From: Lysobacter stagni
GTDB lineage: Bacteria; Pseudomonadota; Gammaproteobacteria; Xanthomonadales; Xanthomonadaceae
Reading direction: 5' to 3'
Assembly: GCF_030053425.1 (NCBI RefSeq)
Contig: NZ_JASGBI010000001.1
Location: 1,062,001 to 1,126,000, forward strand
Length of the DNA: 64,000 bases
Part shown: positions 57,436 to 64,000 of the stretch, in pieces
Numbering within the stretch: the first letter of the stretch is position 1
How the letters are laid out: every line of letters begins with the position of its first letter
Notes under the pieces: generated by a model
The model's database searches: none
Seen by the model: only the letters and a program-made list of their open reading frames with translations
What the model was told of the DNA's origin: nothing
Position numbers and translations under genes: made by a program

Positions 57436-57501
57436 AGTGCCCGCTATGGGTCGAAAGCGGCTGAAGCTTCGACCGCGGTCAACCGAAAGCGGACACTCGG
57501 C
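57436..57501 (-). repeat. Degenerate bipartite hairpin repeat
   Basis: On the minus strand this holds GTGTCCGCTTTCGG and, further on, CCGCTTTCGACCCATAGCGGGCACT, matching both halves of the repeat seen at 58.9-62.7 kb but with more mismatches. It lies between the LytS gene and the small membrane protein. Confidence 0.5.
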
Positions 57502-57836: not shown

Positions 57837-58068
57837 CAGTGGGCGGCTTGGTTTGCGACCGTCCGCCCCTGGCCCCTAGCTGACATCGAACAACGCACCC
57901 GACGGCCGCACAGCTGCCGGCTACGAGCGGTCCTGCGCCCCCGGCCATCCCCATATTCCCGGTTTCGTCGGCCCATTCCACGATTCGTCGCATGGCGGTT
58001 GCCAGGCGGTGTCGGGTGATCGCAGCCTGATCCCCGCCGGATGACCGGCATCGCCCTGCGAGTCGCTC

Positions 58069-58860: not shown

Positions 58861-58952
58861 CCGGCGCGCAGGGCGAGGGATGTGATGGCATTGCGCGCCA
58901 TCGACGGATCGATAGCGGACATCGGAGGAAGGCGAAGCGCGTCGGCAGTGCT

Positions 58953-58982
58953 AATGTCCGCGTTCGACCCATAGAGGTCACT
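58953..58982. repeat. Right half of the bipartite hairpin repeat
   Basis: AATGTCCGCGTTCGACCCATAGAGGTCACT, degenerate in the stem. Just left of it, ATAGCGGACAT at 58912 is a fragment of the left half. It ends 12 bp before the next start. Confidence 0.6.
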
Positions 58983-58994
58983 CGAAAGGTGCGT

Positions 58995-59279
58995 ATGGAG
59001 CGCAATGCTGAGAGGGCAAGGTGGAGTCAGTTCCGGCAATTGCGTATTGCCGCGTGGGTGTCATTTGCCGTTGTGTTGGTCTGTCTGTTCGTAGCAGACG
59101 GCGCCATTCTCCTCATCTCGTTCGTCGTGTGGGGCGCTATTTCCGTTGGCGCAGCGTTCTGGCCGTGCCCGTTGTGCGGTCGCCGCGTTGGTTACGTGCC
59201 TGCGGGGCCATTCATGCTTCTTTGGCCGTTTGGCGGCTGGTGCACTAGTTGTGGTGGCAGATTGTTTCTCCGCCGATAA
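58995..59279 (+). CDS. Small membrane protein with zinc-ribbon-like Cys pairs
   Basis: 94 residues. Two hydrophobic helices (IAAWVSFAVVLVCLFVAD and ILLISFVVWGAISVGAAFW), then CPLCGRR and CTSCGGR, a possible four-Cys zinc ribbon on one side of the membrane. Start ATG 58995 after GAAAGG. No known family. It sits between two repeat halves. Confidence 0.65.
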   Translation: MERNAERARWSQFRQLRIAAWVSFAVVLVCLFVADGAILLISFVVWGAISVGAAFWPCPLCGRRVGYVPAGPFMLLWPFGGWCTSCGGRLFLRR

Positions 59280-59283
59280 CGGC

Positions 59284-59312
59284 GAATGACCGCTTCTGGC
59301 AGATAGCGGACA
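59284..59312. repeat. Left half of the bipartite hairpin repeat
   Basis: AATGACCGCTTCTGGCAGATAGCGGACAT, starting 4 bp after the stop of the small membrane protein. The matching right half is not found downstream. Confidence 0.65.
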
Positions 59313-59423
59313 TGGTTGGGGAGTGCGGCGCTGGCCACCCGGCCCAATGCAGACGCGCAACCGCGTTGCGTGCCCTTGGGGAACGGCCTGGAGCGCAGCA
59401 CTCACTGGATATCTCGCTCACGG

Positions 59424-60446
59424 CTACGAGTCACCGGATTTCGATGCATGGAATTCGACCAGCAGGCCGAGGTCCTCCTGCGTCGGCGCCAGGAACGCAT
59501 CGCCCTGCGACCCCTGATAGCGTGGGATGCGGACGTCGTAACCACGTTCTACGCGTCGTTGCGCGCGGTCGATATCCTGCACCTCGATGCTGATGCCAAG
59601 CACTTGCGGGCCGCCATCGCGCAACGCTTCCGCGGCGGTTCCCGGGCCAGCCGGCTGCAGGGCGAGCAGCTCCTTGTGTCCGACCTGGATGCGGTACCCC
59701 TGTGCGGCGATCCGCCGAAGGCGGACGGGTGTGGCGCCACCGAAGCCCATGCGTTCAAGCTGCCTGCGGTCTGCATCCGCGTCCGACGAGAGCAGCCAGA
59801 TCCCGGTCAGCGCCTGGGCACCATTGGGCTGCTCCTGTGCGACACGAGTATCGACGACGCGCGCCGGCGTCGCTTCGAGCGCGGAATAGTCGATGTAGAA
59901 GAGATGGCTGGACAAGGGCGAACGCTCGAAAGCGAACAGACGCCAACGGGGCGGCCTGGAAGGTCCGTCGCCATCGGGGTCGTCGGGCGAAGCGCTGAAG
60001 ACCGGCGTCGGCGCGAACCCCTGCGCCTTCAGTAGTGCCAGCGTCCCTTCGAGGTTCGACGCGCGCAGGCCGAAGGTGCGCGCGCCGGGGGCTCCATGCA
60101 GCGAGGATTGGTCGGCCTGCATGCCTGGATCCAGCTCGGCGTCCGCTCGCTCGATTCCGAACAGTTCAAGGTAGCTGCGATCCCCGAAGCGCACGTAGCG
60201 GTTGGCCACGCCATCCGGATTGCGCCCCGGCCGCACCTGGAAGCCAAGCTTCATCGCCATGACCATGCTGACCTGGTCGATGGAGCGCCCCCACAGCAGG
60301 GCATGGTCGATCTCGTTGGTGTATCCCGGTTGCCTGTCCAGTTGCCTCGCATCGGCGGCGATCGCGATCGGCGTCGAGGTGCCCAGGATCAGTGCGCAAC
60401 ACAGAGCCGACAGGCGGCTCCATGGCTTGGATCGTTGCAGGTTCAT
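59424..60446 (-). CDS. Exported glyoxalase-like (VOC, glyoxalase_3) protein
   Basis: 340 residues. Signal peptide (about 1-33, ALCCALILGTSTPIAIA), then two VOC modules: IDHALLWGRSIDQVSMVMAMKLGFQV with YVRFGDRSYLELFG, and a C-terminal half ending LGLLVEFH. Matches the Glyoxalase_3 type. ATG 60446 after GGAG. It is the only leftward gene in the small-gene cluster. Substrate unknown. Confidence 0.8.
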   Translation of the reverse strand: MNLQRSKPWSRLSALCCALILGTSTPIAIAADARQLDRQPGYTNEIDHALLWGRSIDQVSMVMAMKLGFQVRPGRNPDGVANRYVRFGDRSYLELFGIERADAELDPGMQADQSSLHGAPGARTFGLRASNLEGTLALLKAQGFAPTPVFSASPDDPDGDGPSRPPRWRLFAFERSPLSSHLFYIDYSALEATPARVVDTRVAQEQPNGAQALTGIWLLSSDADADRRQLERMGFGGATPVRLRRIAAQGYRIQVGHKELLALQPAGPGTAAEALRDGGPQVLGISIEVQDIDRAQRRVERGYDVRIPRYQGSQGDAFLAPTQEDLGLLVEFHASKSGDS

Positions 60447-60470
60447 TCCGGATCTCCATGGCAGGTGGCG

Positions 60471-60524
60471 TGCGCTGTGCGCGCATGAAGCCGTCCGCGC
60501 GCGCTGCGGACCACGCACAGCGCA
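60471..60524. promoter_or_regulatory. Spaced 11-bp inverted repeat upstream of the VOC gene
   Basis: TGCGCTGTGCG at 60471-60481 and CGCACAGCGCA at 60514-60524 are exact complements, 32 bp apart, beginning 25 bp from the VOC start. Their centres are 43 bp apart, about four helical turns, as for two operator half-sites or a long hairpin in the mRNA leader. Confidence 0.4.
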
Positions 60525-60703
60525 TGCGCACATCTGGCTGGAACGCATCGTCCCCAGCCGTCGCCGCCTCGGCGCGCACCAGAAGCCGACCACGAGCATG
60601 GACGGATGATTCTTTTACGCCTGCAGCGGACGACGTTCCTGGCAACGCGAAGAGCGCCCCTCATCGTTGGAGCCGCCCGGCGAGGGGCATTGGGATCGGT
60701 GCT

Positions 60704-60733
60704 AATGTCCGCTTTCGACCCAAAGCGGACACT
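60704..60733. repeat. Right half of the bipartite hairpin repeat
   Basis: AATGTCCGCTTTCGACCCAAAGCGGACACT with a perfect 9-bp stem, 40 bp before the next start. Its open frame gives the spurious peptide MSAFDPKRT. Confidence 0.75.
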
Positions 60734-60773
60734 GAAAATCTCGCTTGAGGCATGTCGGGCGACTGGGAGATGG

Positions 60774-61118
60774 ATGGAAATCATGAAACGGATAGCGATT
60801 GTCGCGGCTTCGGCCTTCTTGGCTGCATGTGCGTCTGTCCCGAATGCGGCGACATACGCAGGCGACGTTCCCGCCGAGATTTCAGCGAGGCCAGGCGACG
60901 AGTTCTCGTGGCGAGGGCGGACCTACACGCCAGACCGCATGGGCGATGCGATTCGTGCAGCCAAGGCGTCTGAGGGCCTCACCTCGGTCGTCCTGCTGTA
61001 CGGCGACGATGCCACCGTTCAAGACATTATTGATGTTGCGATCATCGCTCGTGCTGCCGGGTTGCCTGCGTTCTATAAGCAAGGCGACAAGCTCAACCCG
61101 ATCACGGTCAGCCGCTGA
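60774..61118 (+). CDS. Small lipoprotein with ExbD/TolR-like domain
   Basis: About 114 residues. Lipobox LAACAS near residue 19-24. The rest (EFSWRGRTYTPDRMGDAIRAAK, LYGDDATVQDIIDVAIIARAAGLPAF) resembles the ExbD/TolR periplasmic fold. Start ATG 60774 with GGGAGA at 60765; ATG 60783 is also possible. The function of a lipid-anchored version without the ExbD helix is unknown. Confidence 0.7.
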   Translation: MEIMKRIAIVAASAFLAACASVPNAATYAGDVPAEISARPGDEFSWRGRTYTPDRMGDAIRAAKASEGLTSVVLLYGDDATVQDIIDVAIIARAAGLPAFYKQGDKLNPITVSR

Positions 61119-61130
61119 GCGCCAAGCAGG

Positions 61131-61218
61131 GAATGTCCGCTTCTGGCCGATAGTGGACATTGGGCCGGGTGGCGCGGCCGGAGCGATGCAAATGTCCGCT
61201 TTCGCCCTAAAGAGGACA
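61131..61218. repeat. Complete bipartite hairpin repeat
   Basis: Left half at 61131-61160 (stem AATGTCCGCT/AGTGGACATT) and right half at 61190-61218 (AATGTCCGCTTTCG...GAGGACAT), joined by a GC-rich spacer. Begins 12 bp after one gene and ends 45 bp before the next. Confidence 0.75.
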
Positions 61219-61263
61219 TCGGAAGCTTGGTAGATTGCCTGCCTTGAAGTTGGGAGTCGAGCG

Positions 61264-61521
61264 ATGCGTGCCTCGTTGGAAGACTGGAAGAATGGCTGGG
61301 TTGAGATCGAAGTGGGACTGTCAGTGCGGGACATCGATCTCCTTATCGCTTCATTGCAAGTGATCAAGGCCGATCCCGATCAGCACTTCCATGCCACAAG
61401 CGACTTTATCGGCGAGGGGGGAATAGGCCAGATTACATTCCAGATTCAACAACCCTCAGAGGCGAACAACCTGAGTCTTGGTAGTCGGGCCGTCGGCCCA
61501 AGCGAATCGATCGACCTCTAA
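61264..61521 (+). CDS. Unrecognised small soluble protein
   Basis: 85 residues without signal or membrane helix, LEDWKNGWVEIEVGLSVRDIDLLIASL... with a predicted alpha/beta order. The WKNGWVEIEV opening resembles some immunity-like small proteins, but no specific family is claimed. Flanked by repeats on both sides. Confidence 0.6.
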   Translation: MRASLEDWKNGWVEIEVGLSVRDIDLLIASLQVIKADPDQHFHATSDFIGEGGIGQITFQIQQPSEANNLSLGSRAVGPSESIDL

Positions 61522-61527
61522 CTTGGT

Positions 61528-61612
61528 GGACCGCTTCTGGCCAATGGCGGACATTGGGCGGGAGTGGGGCGGTCGGCAGTGGCCATGTCCGCTTTCGACC
61601 CGAAGCGGACAT
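61528..61612. repeat. Complete bipartite hairpin repeat
   Basis: Left half GGACCGCTTCTGG...GGCGGACATT (61528-61556) starts 6 bp after a stop; right half CCATGTCCGCTTTCGACCCGAAGCGGACAT at 61583-61612. Confidence 0.75.
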
Positions 61613-61696
61613 ATGGGACTTCGCTAAGTACAGGTTCGCGGGGTCTCGGTATGCCAGTTTTCCTGAGCGCAACCTACTGGTTGATTGAACCCCTCA

Positions 61697-62005
61697 ATGA
61701 CCTTCTCGCACGAGCCATGGTTAGTTCTCTCCGTTCTTGTGTTCACGGCCTTGTGGCTTGGGTTGGTGGCGTACTTCCAGCGTTACCTCAGGACGCGGCA
61801 TCCCGCCGAGTTCGTGGCCTTGGGCGAGCCGTCTTTCCGCATTGGTAAAGGCCAGTTCCTCCGGATTGCCGCATACATCTATAGGCGGCGTCATACCGCC
61901 TTGGGCAGCCCGAGACTTTCCTTTATTTGCGATGCGATGGCCGTCTGTCTCACGGCGGTGGTTGGGCTGTATGTCTACGCCTGCTTCACGCTCCCGGGGC
62001 GATGA
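61697..62005 (+). CDS. Two-helix membrane protein, UspB-like
   Basis: 102 residues. Helix 1 (LVLSVLVFTALWLGLVAYF), a charged middle (RYLRTRHPAEF, RIAAYIYRRRHTALGSPRL), helix 2 (AMAVCLTAVVGLYVYACF). Length and layout resemble enterobacterial UspB. The start is uncertain: ATG 61697 or TTG 61685, both with weak ribosome sites. Confidence 0.6.
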   Translation: MTFSHEPWLVLSVLVFTALWLGLVAYFQRYLRTRHPAEFVALGEPSFRIGKGQFLRIAAYIYRRRHTALGSPRLSFICDAMAVCLTAVVGLYVYACFTLPGR

Positions 62006-62068
62006 CCGGTACGTCGCAACATCCAAGCTGATGCTGCAAGGCGACCGGCCTAAATTCTGGGACAAGCG

Positions 62069-62157
62069 AACGTCCGCTCCTGGCCGGTAGCGGACATTGG
62101 GGCAGGGTGACGGCTGAGACTGGTGCTAATGTCAGCTTTCGACCCAAAGCGGACACT
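62069..62157. repeat. Complete bipartite hairpin repeat
   Basis: Left half AACGTCCGCTCCTGG...AGCGGACATTGG (62069-62100) and right half AATGTCAGCTTTCGACCCAAAGCGGACACT (62128-62157), which ends 28 bp before the next start. Confidence 0.75.
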
Positions 62158-62185
62158 CGGGTTCGATTACTGGAGATCGGGAAGC

Positions 62186-62692
62186 ATGGAGGTAACGAAG
62201 CGAAGGATTCGCGAGACTATCGAGCTTGCGTTTGACGGAGTTCCTCGACCGAGCATGTCACTTCGGCAGTTCCTGCTCACGGATGAGAGAGGATTGGCGG
62301 GTGACATCACGGAGGAGGAGTGGCGACTGGCTGGGATCATCAGAACGGACTCGAGATGGCAGGACATATCCGATCTTGAGATCGAGCACTGCGAGTGCCA
62401 GCTGGCCCACATGCAGGCAGAGGAGTTCCGCTATTACCTTCCGGCCTACATGGTGTACTCGATAGTTCATGCCAATAGACCCATCTGGGAAAGCTCTGTC
62501 CCTGGTGGCGTCATCTTCGGGCTTACTCCAAGCAGTGAAGCCCCCCTATACAACCTCTTGCAATACAGTCTTCTACAGCTCGATCAGCGCAATGCAATCG
62601 CGGAATTCCTCAGGTACATGGCGAGCAATGCGGCTGTGTACTTACGAGAGGATGCAGAAGGGGCGCTGACCTTCTGGAAAGAATGCGCCTGA
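62186..62692 (+). CDS. DUF6714-like protein
   Basis: 168 residues, soluble. RRIRETIELAFDGVPRPSMSLRQ...DITEEEW near the start and LPAYMVYSIVHANRPIW in the middle recall DUF6714 proteins, whose function is unknown. ATG 62186 behind GGGAAG; the longer frame starts within the repeat. Confidence 0.75.
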   Translation: MEVTKRRIRETIELAFDGVPRPSMSLRQFLLTDERGLAGDITEEEWRLAGIIRTDSRWQDISDLEIEHCECQLAHMQAEEFRYYLPAYMVYSIVHANRPIWESSVPGGVIFGLTPSSEAPLYNLLQYSLLQLDQRNAIAEFLRYMASNAAVYLREDAEGALTFWKECA

Positions 62693-62712
62693 TGGGCAGC
62701 GGCCTTCCGGAC

Positions 62713-62741
62713 AATGTCCGCTTGTGGCCGAAAGCGGACAT
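62713..62741. repeat. Left-type half of the hairpin repeat
   Basis: AATGTCCGCTTGTGGCCGAAAGCGGACAT, a single hairpin 20 bp after the DUF6714-like stop; no right half follows. Confidence 0.7.
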
Positions 62742-62780
62742 CCGCGCGGACGCATGGTCGGACTGATCCTCGCGTGCGTT

Positions 62781-62810
62781 GCCCGCCGTTGCCCGCCGTT
62801 GCCCGCCGTT
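62781..62810. repeat. Three 10-bp tandem repeats
   Basis: Three exact copies of GCCCGCCGTT, with partial copies on both ends, 50 bp before the final gene. Could vary by slippage and alter spacing in its leader. Confidence 0.8.
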
Positions 62811-62859
62811 GCCGCCTGCGATAGCGTTGGCGTAGGGACTTGGGGGAAGGATGGAATCG

Positions 62860-64000
62860 ATGCGTGCCGAGCGGTGGGCTTTTACCGCACTCGTCCGCGT
62901 GGGAATCGCCGCATCGCTGCTGCTACTCGCCGGCTGCCGCGACCGCGTGCTCGAGTCCCTTTGCAATGACGAAGGAAGGTACCTAGCTGGGCACGACGTA
63001 GCGTCCGCGGGCGTGTTGCTCGAGCACTTCGAATACGATGACCCGGGCAACGGGCCCGATCCCGTCAGTCGCGACGTGCTCGCCTTGCTGACGCAGGGCG
63101 GAATGCAGTTCGTCGAAGTAAGACGCTCGGAAACGTCGGACCGCGCGCTTGCACCACTGCGCATCGCATCGCCGTACCTGCGCATGTCACTGGAGCCGGT
63201 GGGCATGCCAGCTTGCGCGGACGCCTATCGCTTCACGCAGGAGCTGATCGGGACGGTGAGTGCCAGTCAAGAGGTTGCAATCGTCATTCCCCGCGGCCTT
63301 TGCTTCGCAGTGCAGGGCGTTGCCGCGCCCTCGGCCGAGTATACGGCGCGCTGGCACCACGACCGGCGCAAGACCTGGTTTAGGTCCTATGATCGAATCA
63401 CGCAGGGGCTTTACGAGACACGCAGCGGCAGGGCGGTCACAGAGTTCAGGACCTTCGACAGCGACATGCGCTCGGCGCGGGCTGGTCGGTATACCTCCTG
63501 CGCCGGCTTGCGCAGTCCCTTCCTCCGCGCGGTTCCGCATGGCATAGATTTCGGAAAGGATCGCCTCATGAATGCGCAGGTCAAGCAGCCTCGCGATCTC
63601 AAGGGTCGCTACTACAGTCTCGCCTCCTTCCGCTTCAAGGACATCCCCCCATTTTCGACGGAGAACCTGCCCGATCCCGTCGTCGTACCGGCTTCGGAGA
63701 TCACGCAGGAACCGATCAACGAGATGATTTCCGCGGCGGAGCTGCAAGCGCGCTTCCGCACGCCACAGGAAAGTCTAGACGGCGCGGTGTTCTCGTCGAT
63801 GTGCAGGGTGCGCGAGCTGTGCCTGCTGACGCGACGTCAAGACCGACTTATCGCGTCTCCGCTGCCGGCCGACGACCTGTCCTATCAGGGGGCGCAATGG
63901 GTGTTCGCGCTGCGCGATGGGGGCGTGCTGGTGCTGGTCATGCCTGCGGTGCCGCAGGACGGCAAGTACGGGCCGGTCCGGCTGACGTTGAATCACTACG
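62860..64000 (+). CDS. Unrecognised lipoprotein, 3' end outside window
   Basis: At least 380 residues. Signal with lipobox LLAGCRDR (about residues 22-27), then a soluble part with several Cys and no known motif; DPVSRDVLALLTQGGMQF and AEYTARWHHDRRKTWF are examples. ATG 62860 has GGGGAAGG nine bases upstream; ATG 62851 is too close to it. The frame is open to base 64000. Confidence 0.7.
   Translation, partial: MRAERWAFTALVRVGIAASLLLLAGCRDRVLESLCNDEGRYLAGHDVASAGVLLEHFEYDDPGNGPDPVSRDVLALLTQGGMQFVEVRRSETSDRALAPLRIASPYLRMSLEPVGMPACADAYRFTQELIGTVSASQEVAIVIPRGLCFAVQGVAAPSAEYTARWHHDRRKTWFRSYDRITQGLYETRSGRAVTEFRTFDSDMRSARAGRYTSCAGLRSPFLRAVPHGIDFGKDRLMNAQVKQPRDLKGRYYSLASFRFKDIPPFSTENLPDPVVVPASEITQEPINEMISAAELQARFRTPQESLDGAVFSSMCRVRELCLLTRRQDRLIASPLPADDLSYQGAQWVFALRDGGVLVLVMPAVPQDGKYGPVRLTLNHY

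Follow-up and report, generated by a model that had tools for sequence, protein, structure and literature searches.

What accounts for the regular alternation of small, mostly unfamiliar genes and paired hairpin repeats on the chromosome of Lysobacter stagni? The locus lies towards the end of the window, by which we mean the whole stretch of 64,000 nucleotides that was analysed (contig NZ_JASGBI010000001.1, positions 1,062,001 to 1,126,000 of the forward strand). A first-pass annotation of this stretch had described the genes at 58861 to 62860 as cassette-like, and had proposed either that genes and repeats moved or were copied together, or that the repeats act as transcript boundaries. Comparison of sequences makes it probable that the locus is a chromosomal array of mobile gene modules, which would be gained, lost and swapped by exchange inside the repeat cores, presumably through a tyrosine recombinase. 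Each small gene would be enclosed by two oppositely oriented cores, B before and A after it, and neighbouring modules would usually be joined by an A-to-B linker module. Between two like cores of one orientation, a gene plus linker could be lost or gained, and the joint use of A and B would let one gene replace another. The mover would be a tyrosine recombinase, namely the short one that is encoded between inverted copies of these sites.

Two types of 24-bp palindromic core alternate in opposite orientation in the window, with A downstream of each stop codon and B upstream of each start (Table 1). Core B is built as GTCCGCTT-TCGACCCA-AAGCGGAC (consensus GTCCGCTTTCGACCCAAAGCGGAC) and core A as GTCCGCTT-CTGGCCGA-TAGCGGAC (consensus GTCCGCTTCTGGCCGATAGCGGAC). 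The consensus of A shows 4 differences from the reverse complement of that of B, so that A is nearly B read backwards and the cores alternate in orientation. At abutting modules in the window, A and B are joined by a linker of 34-35 nt. The combined 28-mer with up to 3 mismatches gave 13 matches (7 places, as palindromes count on both strands) and none in 100 shuffles, while the 24-mer pattern gave 23 matches (13 places) compared to a shuffled mean of 0.23. The repeat halves and regular spacing reported in the first-pass annotation are thus real and far above shuffled chance, and its gaps agree with ours within a few bases: the five A cores of the array follow their stop codons by 8, 16, 7, 66 and 23 nt (3-4 nt less when the outer AAT is counted), and the B cores end 9, 43, 46, 74 and 31 nt 5' of the genes, distances that depend on the start codons chosen in this analysis. 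In the whole genome of L. stagni (3.9 Mb), 102 half-sites with up to 6 mismatches fall into about 10 clusters, of which the window holds one (14 stretches, fetched after a whole-genome pattern scan).

The same layout recurs in other members of this genus of soil bacteria. Stretches around sites were fetched from 12 Lysobacter genomes, chosen by kinship and site matches, and yielded 168 A-linker-B elements and 202 B-to-A modules; one module comparison also used some named Lysobacter contigs, and the later module statistics refer to the 12 genomes only. All evidence is drawn from sequence comparison, and family counts are small. Of 468 same-strand neighbours less than 2.5 kb apart, 384 alternate between A and B, whereas 1000 shuffles gave a mean of 261 and a maximum of 296. 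Neighbouring sites share a strand in 465 of 480 cases, and the longest open reading frame (ORF) is directed from B to A in 182 of the 202 modules. A-to-B intervals below 2.5 kb (n=190) measure 50-70 nt from start to start in 148 cases, the other 42 ranging from 45 to 2384 nt. The mean guanine-cytosine (GC) content of the modules is 59.2%, compared to 66.8% for the gyrB/parE loci. Conservation is high in the arms and centres of A and B, the centres (TGGCCG in A, CGACCC in B) being kept at 94-98% per position, and low in the linker. An exception is the heptamer TGCTAAT directly 5' of B, which is kept at 83-98% per position over the 168 elements and could belong to the recombinase site or serve as the -10 element of a promoter.

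Modules recur both within the genome of L. stagni and between species. In the former, B-gene-A blocks are repeated with their edges at sites, as for C1:453327-453739 and 1514705-1514294 (87% over 413 bp; the prefix C1 marks positions in this genome), and module 3 of the window has a relative in another array (C1:2929847-2929491, 77% over 252 nt of interior). When the 202 module interiors were compared all against all, 54 pairs proved similar, and 29 of these reached at least 85% identity over at least 250 nt. Genomes are designated here by G numbers, and the identity of gyrB+parE serves as the reference in each pair. G398 and G401 share a module at 99.9% over 1298 bp (reference 91.8%), its right context being common and only the left one differing. 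Both contexts differ for the modules shared by G399 and G401 (99.1% over 582 bp; reference 89.7%), by G398 and G408 (97.7% over 443 bp; 88.5%) and by G401 and G402 (96.7% over 395 bp; 87.8%). For G402 and G407, 477 nt match at 96.0% from B onward, the similarity ending before A (reference 87.1%). Module 2 of the window (60707-61158) is found at 92.1% nucleotide identity in G402 and G401 in other contexts, the reference between G000 and these two genomes being 87.5 and 85.9%. The comparisons show that single modules occur in different places and species, and near-identical B-gene-A units at unrelated places bear out the proposal that genes and repeats moved together.

The same picture emerges from comparison of close relatives. 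G402 and G408 (gyrB+parE 99.1%) share long common flanks and differ by exchanged stretches with edges at sites. In one array, the same B and A enclose about 350 bp in one genome and an unrelated 440 bp in the other; farther along, two modules stand in place of one, with no blastn match listed between them. At the window itself, the match to orthologues of the left-hand kinase in G403, G407, G400 and G404 extends through the kinase region to C1:1119361-1119368, and the remainder of the 18-kb stretch past the kinase gave no blastn match (E <=1e-5) in 18-19 kb from these four genomes.

Where exchange falls was assessed in 16 families per side with differing context, using one pair per family at an identity of at least 85%, in comparison with random module pairs. 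The right half of B matched at 0.92 (random 0.81, P 0.0005) and the left half of A at 0.88 (random 0.78, P 0.002). No difference from random pairs was seen in these families for the other two halves, left in B and right in A, or for the right linker. Since of each core only the half that adjoins the gene travels with it, the pairs compared place the exchange points inside the cores on average over families; single pairs rarely carry enough differences to place an edge.

A short tyrosine recombinase of about 205 residues is, from its sequence and surroundings, the best candidate enzyme for these sites. The genome of L. stagni has 6 Phage_integrase matches, one of which lies inside an array. This protein of 205 residues (PF00589, E 4.6e-18) is encoded between two B sites that face away from the gene and each start an array. 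Residues R56, K84, H153, R156, H179 and Y188, which we take to be the catalytic R-K-H-R-H-Y set, are kept in at least 27 of 29 aligned proteins, and the protein scores far below the cut-offs of the XerC, XerD, integron integrase and DNA invertase models. Relatives (E <=1e-30) are found in 63 of 398 phylum genomes, and diverged A/B-like sites adjoin the gene in many other proteobacteria. Among the 29 loci listed outside L. stagni, such a site lies within -160/+130 of the gene in 22 at up to 8 mismatches, in 17 at 7 and in 8 at 6, compared to 2, 0 and 0 for a reversed-pattern control at the same listed loci, and site density is 3.8 per kb near the recombinase versus 0.3 per kb far from it. Furthermore, a B site lies within 3 kb of a recombinase match in 6 of the other 10 phylum-sample genomes that carry both, versus 0.03 expected; in two of these six, G086 and G107, the nearest recombinase match is a fragment.

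In site-bearing genomes the gene often has inverted, near-perfect sites on its flanks, as in Pseudoxanthomonas sp. PXM01 (0 mismatches upstream, 1 downstream), Lysobacter G405 (1, 1), a Sphingomonas metagenome-assembled genome (MAG) with a CCACCC centre (1, 2), L. dokdonensis (4, 1) and L. gilvus (3, 3). A site on one side only is present in G406, at a second L. gilvus gene and at two S. daechungensis genes; locus L258 has poor flanking matches (6, 6), and L226, a relative from outside the genus, has no flanking site. A de novo search for inverted repeats beside recombinase genes also scored repeats of other kinds. In L. stagni, a lone perfect A core at C1:1541973 has a second tyrosine recombinase gene about 0.24 kb away, which is longer (C1:1542235-1542660, in an open frame of 531 residues).

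Several results weigh against an array moved by exchange inside the cores and by this enzyme. Non-alternating neighbours make up 84 of the 468 (56 A-A, 28 B-B). The left linker matched at 0.46 compared to 0.39 in random pairs (P 0.018); linker types are common among related species, and one pair is orthologous on its left side. In 10 hand-picked pairs position 9 of B had seemed discordant, but over the 16 families it does not rise above background. The recombinase (E <=1e-15) is found in only 3 of the 12 Lysobacter genomes, one copy carrying a stop codon, and at this threshold it was not found in G398, G399, G401, G402 and G408, the holders of the most alike modules. In addition, 7 of 14 other hand-chosen site-bearing genomes, including the Caulobacter, Dyella and Rhodanobacteraceae genomes with rows of single palindromes described below, have no recombinase match (E <=1e-10), and one more has fragments only. 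Genome-wide co-occurrence of sites and recombinase in the phylum sample is weak (10/35 vs 52/362, one-sided Fisher P 0.03). The candidate enzyme may be gained and lost over time, may act from another location, or may move the modules in some lineages only.

The main rival is homologous recombination after DNA uptake, in which RecA-type exchange between the 83-bp A-linker-B repeats would do the work and no dedicated enzyme would be needed. The repeats have the length and similarity that such exchange requires, edges at the palindrome centres could result from breaks at hairpin tips, and the most alike modules sit in genomes without the short recombinase. The linkers point the same way, as the left one travels with the gene in the G402/G408 pairs at orthologous places and is slightly above random overall. 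However, the edges fall on average in the centres of both cores, and homologous recombination leaves unexplained both the strong conservation of these centres and the presence of sites flanking one recombinase family phylum-wide; we consider it rather unlikely. A still less probable alternative is that another recombinase, either the host XerC/XerD or a further tyrosine recombinase, acts on the sites, with the short one as a mere passenger. It would account for the B cores in 12 of 12 Lysobacter genomes when only 3 hold the short recombinase, and five further Phage_integrase matches are at hand in L. stagni, including the one near the lone A core. Set against this, the arms GTCCGCTT/AAGCGGAC do not look like dif, and diverged sites flank the short recombinase even in genomes without a B core at up to 3 mismatches (e.g. 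G246, G130 and G344).

Spread of the palindromes by a transposase, with their intergenic position due to chance, would make them repetitive extragenic palindromic (REP) sequences, bacterial interspersed mosaic elements (BIMEs) or relatives of miniature inverted-repeat transposable elements (MITEs). The inverted pairs and the runs of tandem palindromes in Sphingomonads fit such repeats, yet the common units include a gene and end inside the repeats. The REP-associated tyrosine transposase (RAYT) that the first-pass annotation had proposed to look for did not turn up, Y1_Tnp exceeding its cut-off in none of the 12 Lysobacter genomes, with one weak match in G398. Moreover, the single presence/absence case of A-linker-B examined (G402 vs G408) removes a stop codon in G408 and reads as a deletion there, not as an insertion of the element alone. 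We regard this explanation as very improbable. Growth of the array by local duplication of linkers, in the manner of clustered regularly interspaced short palindromic repeats (CRISPR), was also considered. Adjacent linkers are not more alike (0.422, n 87) than non-adjacent ones of the same genome (0.425, n 1735; P 0.56), which argues against such growth; the prediction that near repeats should be more alike is our own, and copying from one master repeat stays compatible with the result.

The other proposal of the first-pass annotation, that the repeats act as transcript boundaries, fared less well. Between 58800 and 62900 no terminator-like site coincides with a repeat, the sole one found in the region lying off the repeats, and Rfam gave no match in the window. 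Two-sided changes in the arms number 4 against 97 broken cells for A and 11 against 179 for B. Arm changes are thus rarely compensated, so that sequence and not fold seems to be kept, as would be expected of a site bound by protein more than of an RNA hairpin. As single strands, however, three elements gave better folds than their shuffled versions (z -2.7 to -5.6), and given this folding the elements may have a second role in expression.

The sites extend well beyond L. stagni. At up to 3 mismatches, 36 of 398 phylum genomes have B cores, in many cases just one, compared to 7 of 398 (one match each) for the reversed pattern; among 59 relatives the numbers are 24 and 0, and all 12 Lysobacter genomes carry B cores (3 to 45 matches). 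An exact 25-mer was found in 71 stretches of named genomes, including Lysobacter, Caulobacter, Sphingomonas, Dyella, Rhodanobacter, Xanthomonas and MAGs labelled Nitrospinaceae and Nitrospirota, whereas a longer pattern had no match in the named-genome contigs. In Caulobacter sp. 17J80-11 (loci L082, L087 and L133), Rhodanobacteraceae ZG21-1 (L118) and Dyella lipolytica (L124), single B-like cores form rows, spaced by a few hundred bp and mostly on one strand, and Sphingomicrobium and Sphingomonas MAGs (L102, L134) carry tandem palindromes with CCACCC or CGACCC centres. The 90-nt consensus element had no match in plasmid and phage collections, from which records near the own genome were possibly excluded; IMG/VR yielded 3 stretches, of which the site positions only were scanned. 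Six site strings did not occur in the literature searched, and nothing there was recognised as describing this system, most subscription papers and preprints lying outside the reach of both searches.

As for the cargo, 123 sense ORFs were located in the modules of G000, G398, G402 and G401, and the 81 scanned matched 13 Pfam families, all but one represented by a single protein and DUF6714 by two. These families include DUF6714, DUF6869, HSP20, PemK toxin, RraB, alpha/beta hydrolase families, DUF3658 and DUF6968. A PADLOC scan of the 81 module proteins gave one marginal match (Csm3, E 2.6e-4). Of the labels given to the five array genes in the first-pass annotation, only DUF6714 is borne out by Pfam; the ExbD-like and UspB-like labels have no support there. 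As with integron cassettes, the genes probably serve the host as an accessory reservoir. About 10 A cores are directly preceded by a site that, by eye, resembles attC and that we take to be integron attC, two of these sites being orthologous (examples in Table 1); the 413 places scanned for attC include B cores read backwards and overlapping loci, and the count therefore gives no rate. From such sites directly before A cores, it seems that these units have taken up integron cassettes.

Two further kinds of repeated block were seen in L. stagni. One kind, at C1:2844740-2845598, 2858097-2858530 and 2897348-2897628 (L016, L017, L018), is about 300-430 bp long, starts with an A core and contains an antisense ORF of 84 residues, presumably resembling phage DUF3653 proteins. 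A block of about 350 bp (80-84% identical) is repeated at C1:1529123-1529470, 2898518-2898874 and 2851757-2852104, the first two copies ending at a B core.

The coordinates of the array are collected in Table 1. Further sites follow past the window end (A at C1:1126265 and a B-like core at C1:1126323). A 10-bp unit, CGTTGCCCGC, forms a short tandem repeat at 62777-62813, right after the last A core of the window. The open frames 60606-61118 and 62123-62692 extend back into the B site, so that automatic ORF prediction could wrongly extend the proteins at the N-terminus, with peptides such as MSAFDPKRT.

Table 1. Sites, genes and linkers of the array (window coordinates) and attC-like sites of other loci (locus coordinates)
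Feature	Coordinates	Strand	Basis or remark
Two decayed B cores in opposite orientation, beside sensor kinase gene	57439-57462, 57471-57494	-, +	Pattern scan
Decayed A-like core, 5 mismatches	57861-57884	+	Pattern scan
Badly decayed A core, left partner of first B	58897-58920	+	Read by eye, beyond mismatch limit of scan; recognisable part only CGATAGCGGAC (58910-58920)
B core, 4 mismatches to consensus	58956-58979	+	Pattern scan; before gene 58989-59279
Module 1 gene, 96-residue protein	58989-59279	+	Without Pfam match
A core	59288-59311	+	Pattern scan
Antisense Glyoxalase_3 gene	59424-60446	-	In A-to-B interval 59312-60706, replacing short linker; start codon assumed, open frame to 60599
B core, perfect consensus match	60707-60730	+	Pattern scan
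Module 2 gene, 114-residue protein	60774-61118	+	Without Pfam match
A core	61135-61158	+	Pattern scan
A-to-B linker, 35 nt	61159-61193	+	
B core, 3 mismatches	61194-61217	+	Pattern scan
Module 3 gene, 85-residue protein	61264-61521	+	Without Pfam match
A core, 3 mismatches	61529-61552	+	Pattern scan
Linker, 34 nt	61553-61586	+	
B core	61587-61610	+	Pattern scan
Module 4 gene, 106-residue protein	61685-62005	+	No Pfam match over cut-off
A core	62072-62095	+	Pattern scan
Linker, 35 nt	62096-62130	+	
B core	62131-62154	+	Pattern scan
Module 5 gene, DUF6714 protein	62186-62692	+	Pfam, E 3.4e-34
A core closing this array part	62716-62739	+	Pattern scan
attC-like sites before A cores	L012:7880-7970 (C1 ~1515880-1515970); L151 near 6896; L058 near 4887; L066 near 5097; L067 near 3891		By eye

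The closest parallel is offered by the plasmid dif (pdif) modules of Acinetobacter, in which, according to one account, small genes, often of unknown function or encoding toxin-antitoxin systems, are enclosed by sites of inverse orientation; modules of two types alternate, excision removes them in pairs and a model covers the exchange of single ones (PMC13141974). The Lysobacter sites likewise alternate in inverted orientation with two alternating module types, exchange falls at the site centres on average over families, and single modules appear to be replaced. In contrast to dif modules, however, the Lysobacter arrays are chromosomal, their genes mostly point one way, one module type is usually a gene-free 35-nt linker, and the candidate enzyme is the short recombinase and not XerCD. 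The sites, near-perfect palindromes, also do not look like dif. The underlying logic is that of dif modules.

With chromosomal integrons, the system shares small orphan genes that are arrayed in one direction and separated by recombination sites, a gene content that varies between close species and a GC content below that of the host. Unlike in integrons, exchange appears to fall inside two separate palindromes, the A-linker-B consensus contains, by eye, no RYYYAAC...GTTRRRY pair of attC R/L boxes, and the in-array short recombinase scores 24.4 compared to a cut-off of 265 on the integron integrase model TIGR02249. FimB and FimE are proteins of about 200 residues that consist of a catalytic domain only. 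They resemble the present system in pairing a short tyrosine recombinase with inverted short sites, and the similarity to this type is weak (25.1 and 18.8 bits on two 'tyrosine-type DNA invertase' models with cut-offs of 222 and 221), but in Lysobacter the sites flank the recombinase gene and gene modules instead of a promoter switch. Paired palindromes between genes recall REP/BIME sequences mobilised with RAYT, from which the arrays differ by the lack of a RAYT over cut-off in the 12 genomes and by genes that form part of the moving unit; nor do the sites look like REP sequences.

Beyond the array itself, it is quite possible, if slightly less likely than not, that short, catalytic-domain-only tyrosine recombinases with palindromic GTCCGC sites constitute a third natural means of gene capture next to integrons and dif modules, building and reshuffling chromosomal cassette arrays across Alpha-, Beta- and Gammaproteobacteria and swallowing integron cassettes too. 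The system offers clear units, clear sites and a named candidate enzyme. Moreover, with integron cassettes and their attC sitting inside some units, it bears on how cassettes acquire flanking recombination sites. If true, environmental proteobacteria would hold a large pool of small, unnamed genes that can move singly, by a route for which the programs that find integrons and transposons are not designed.

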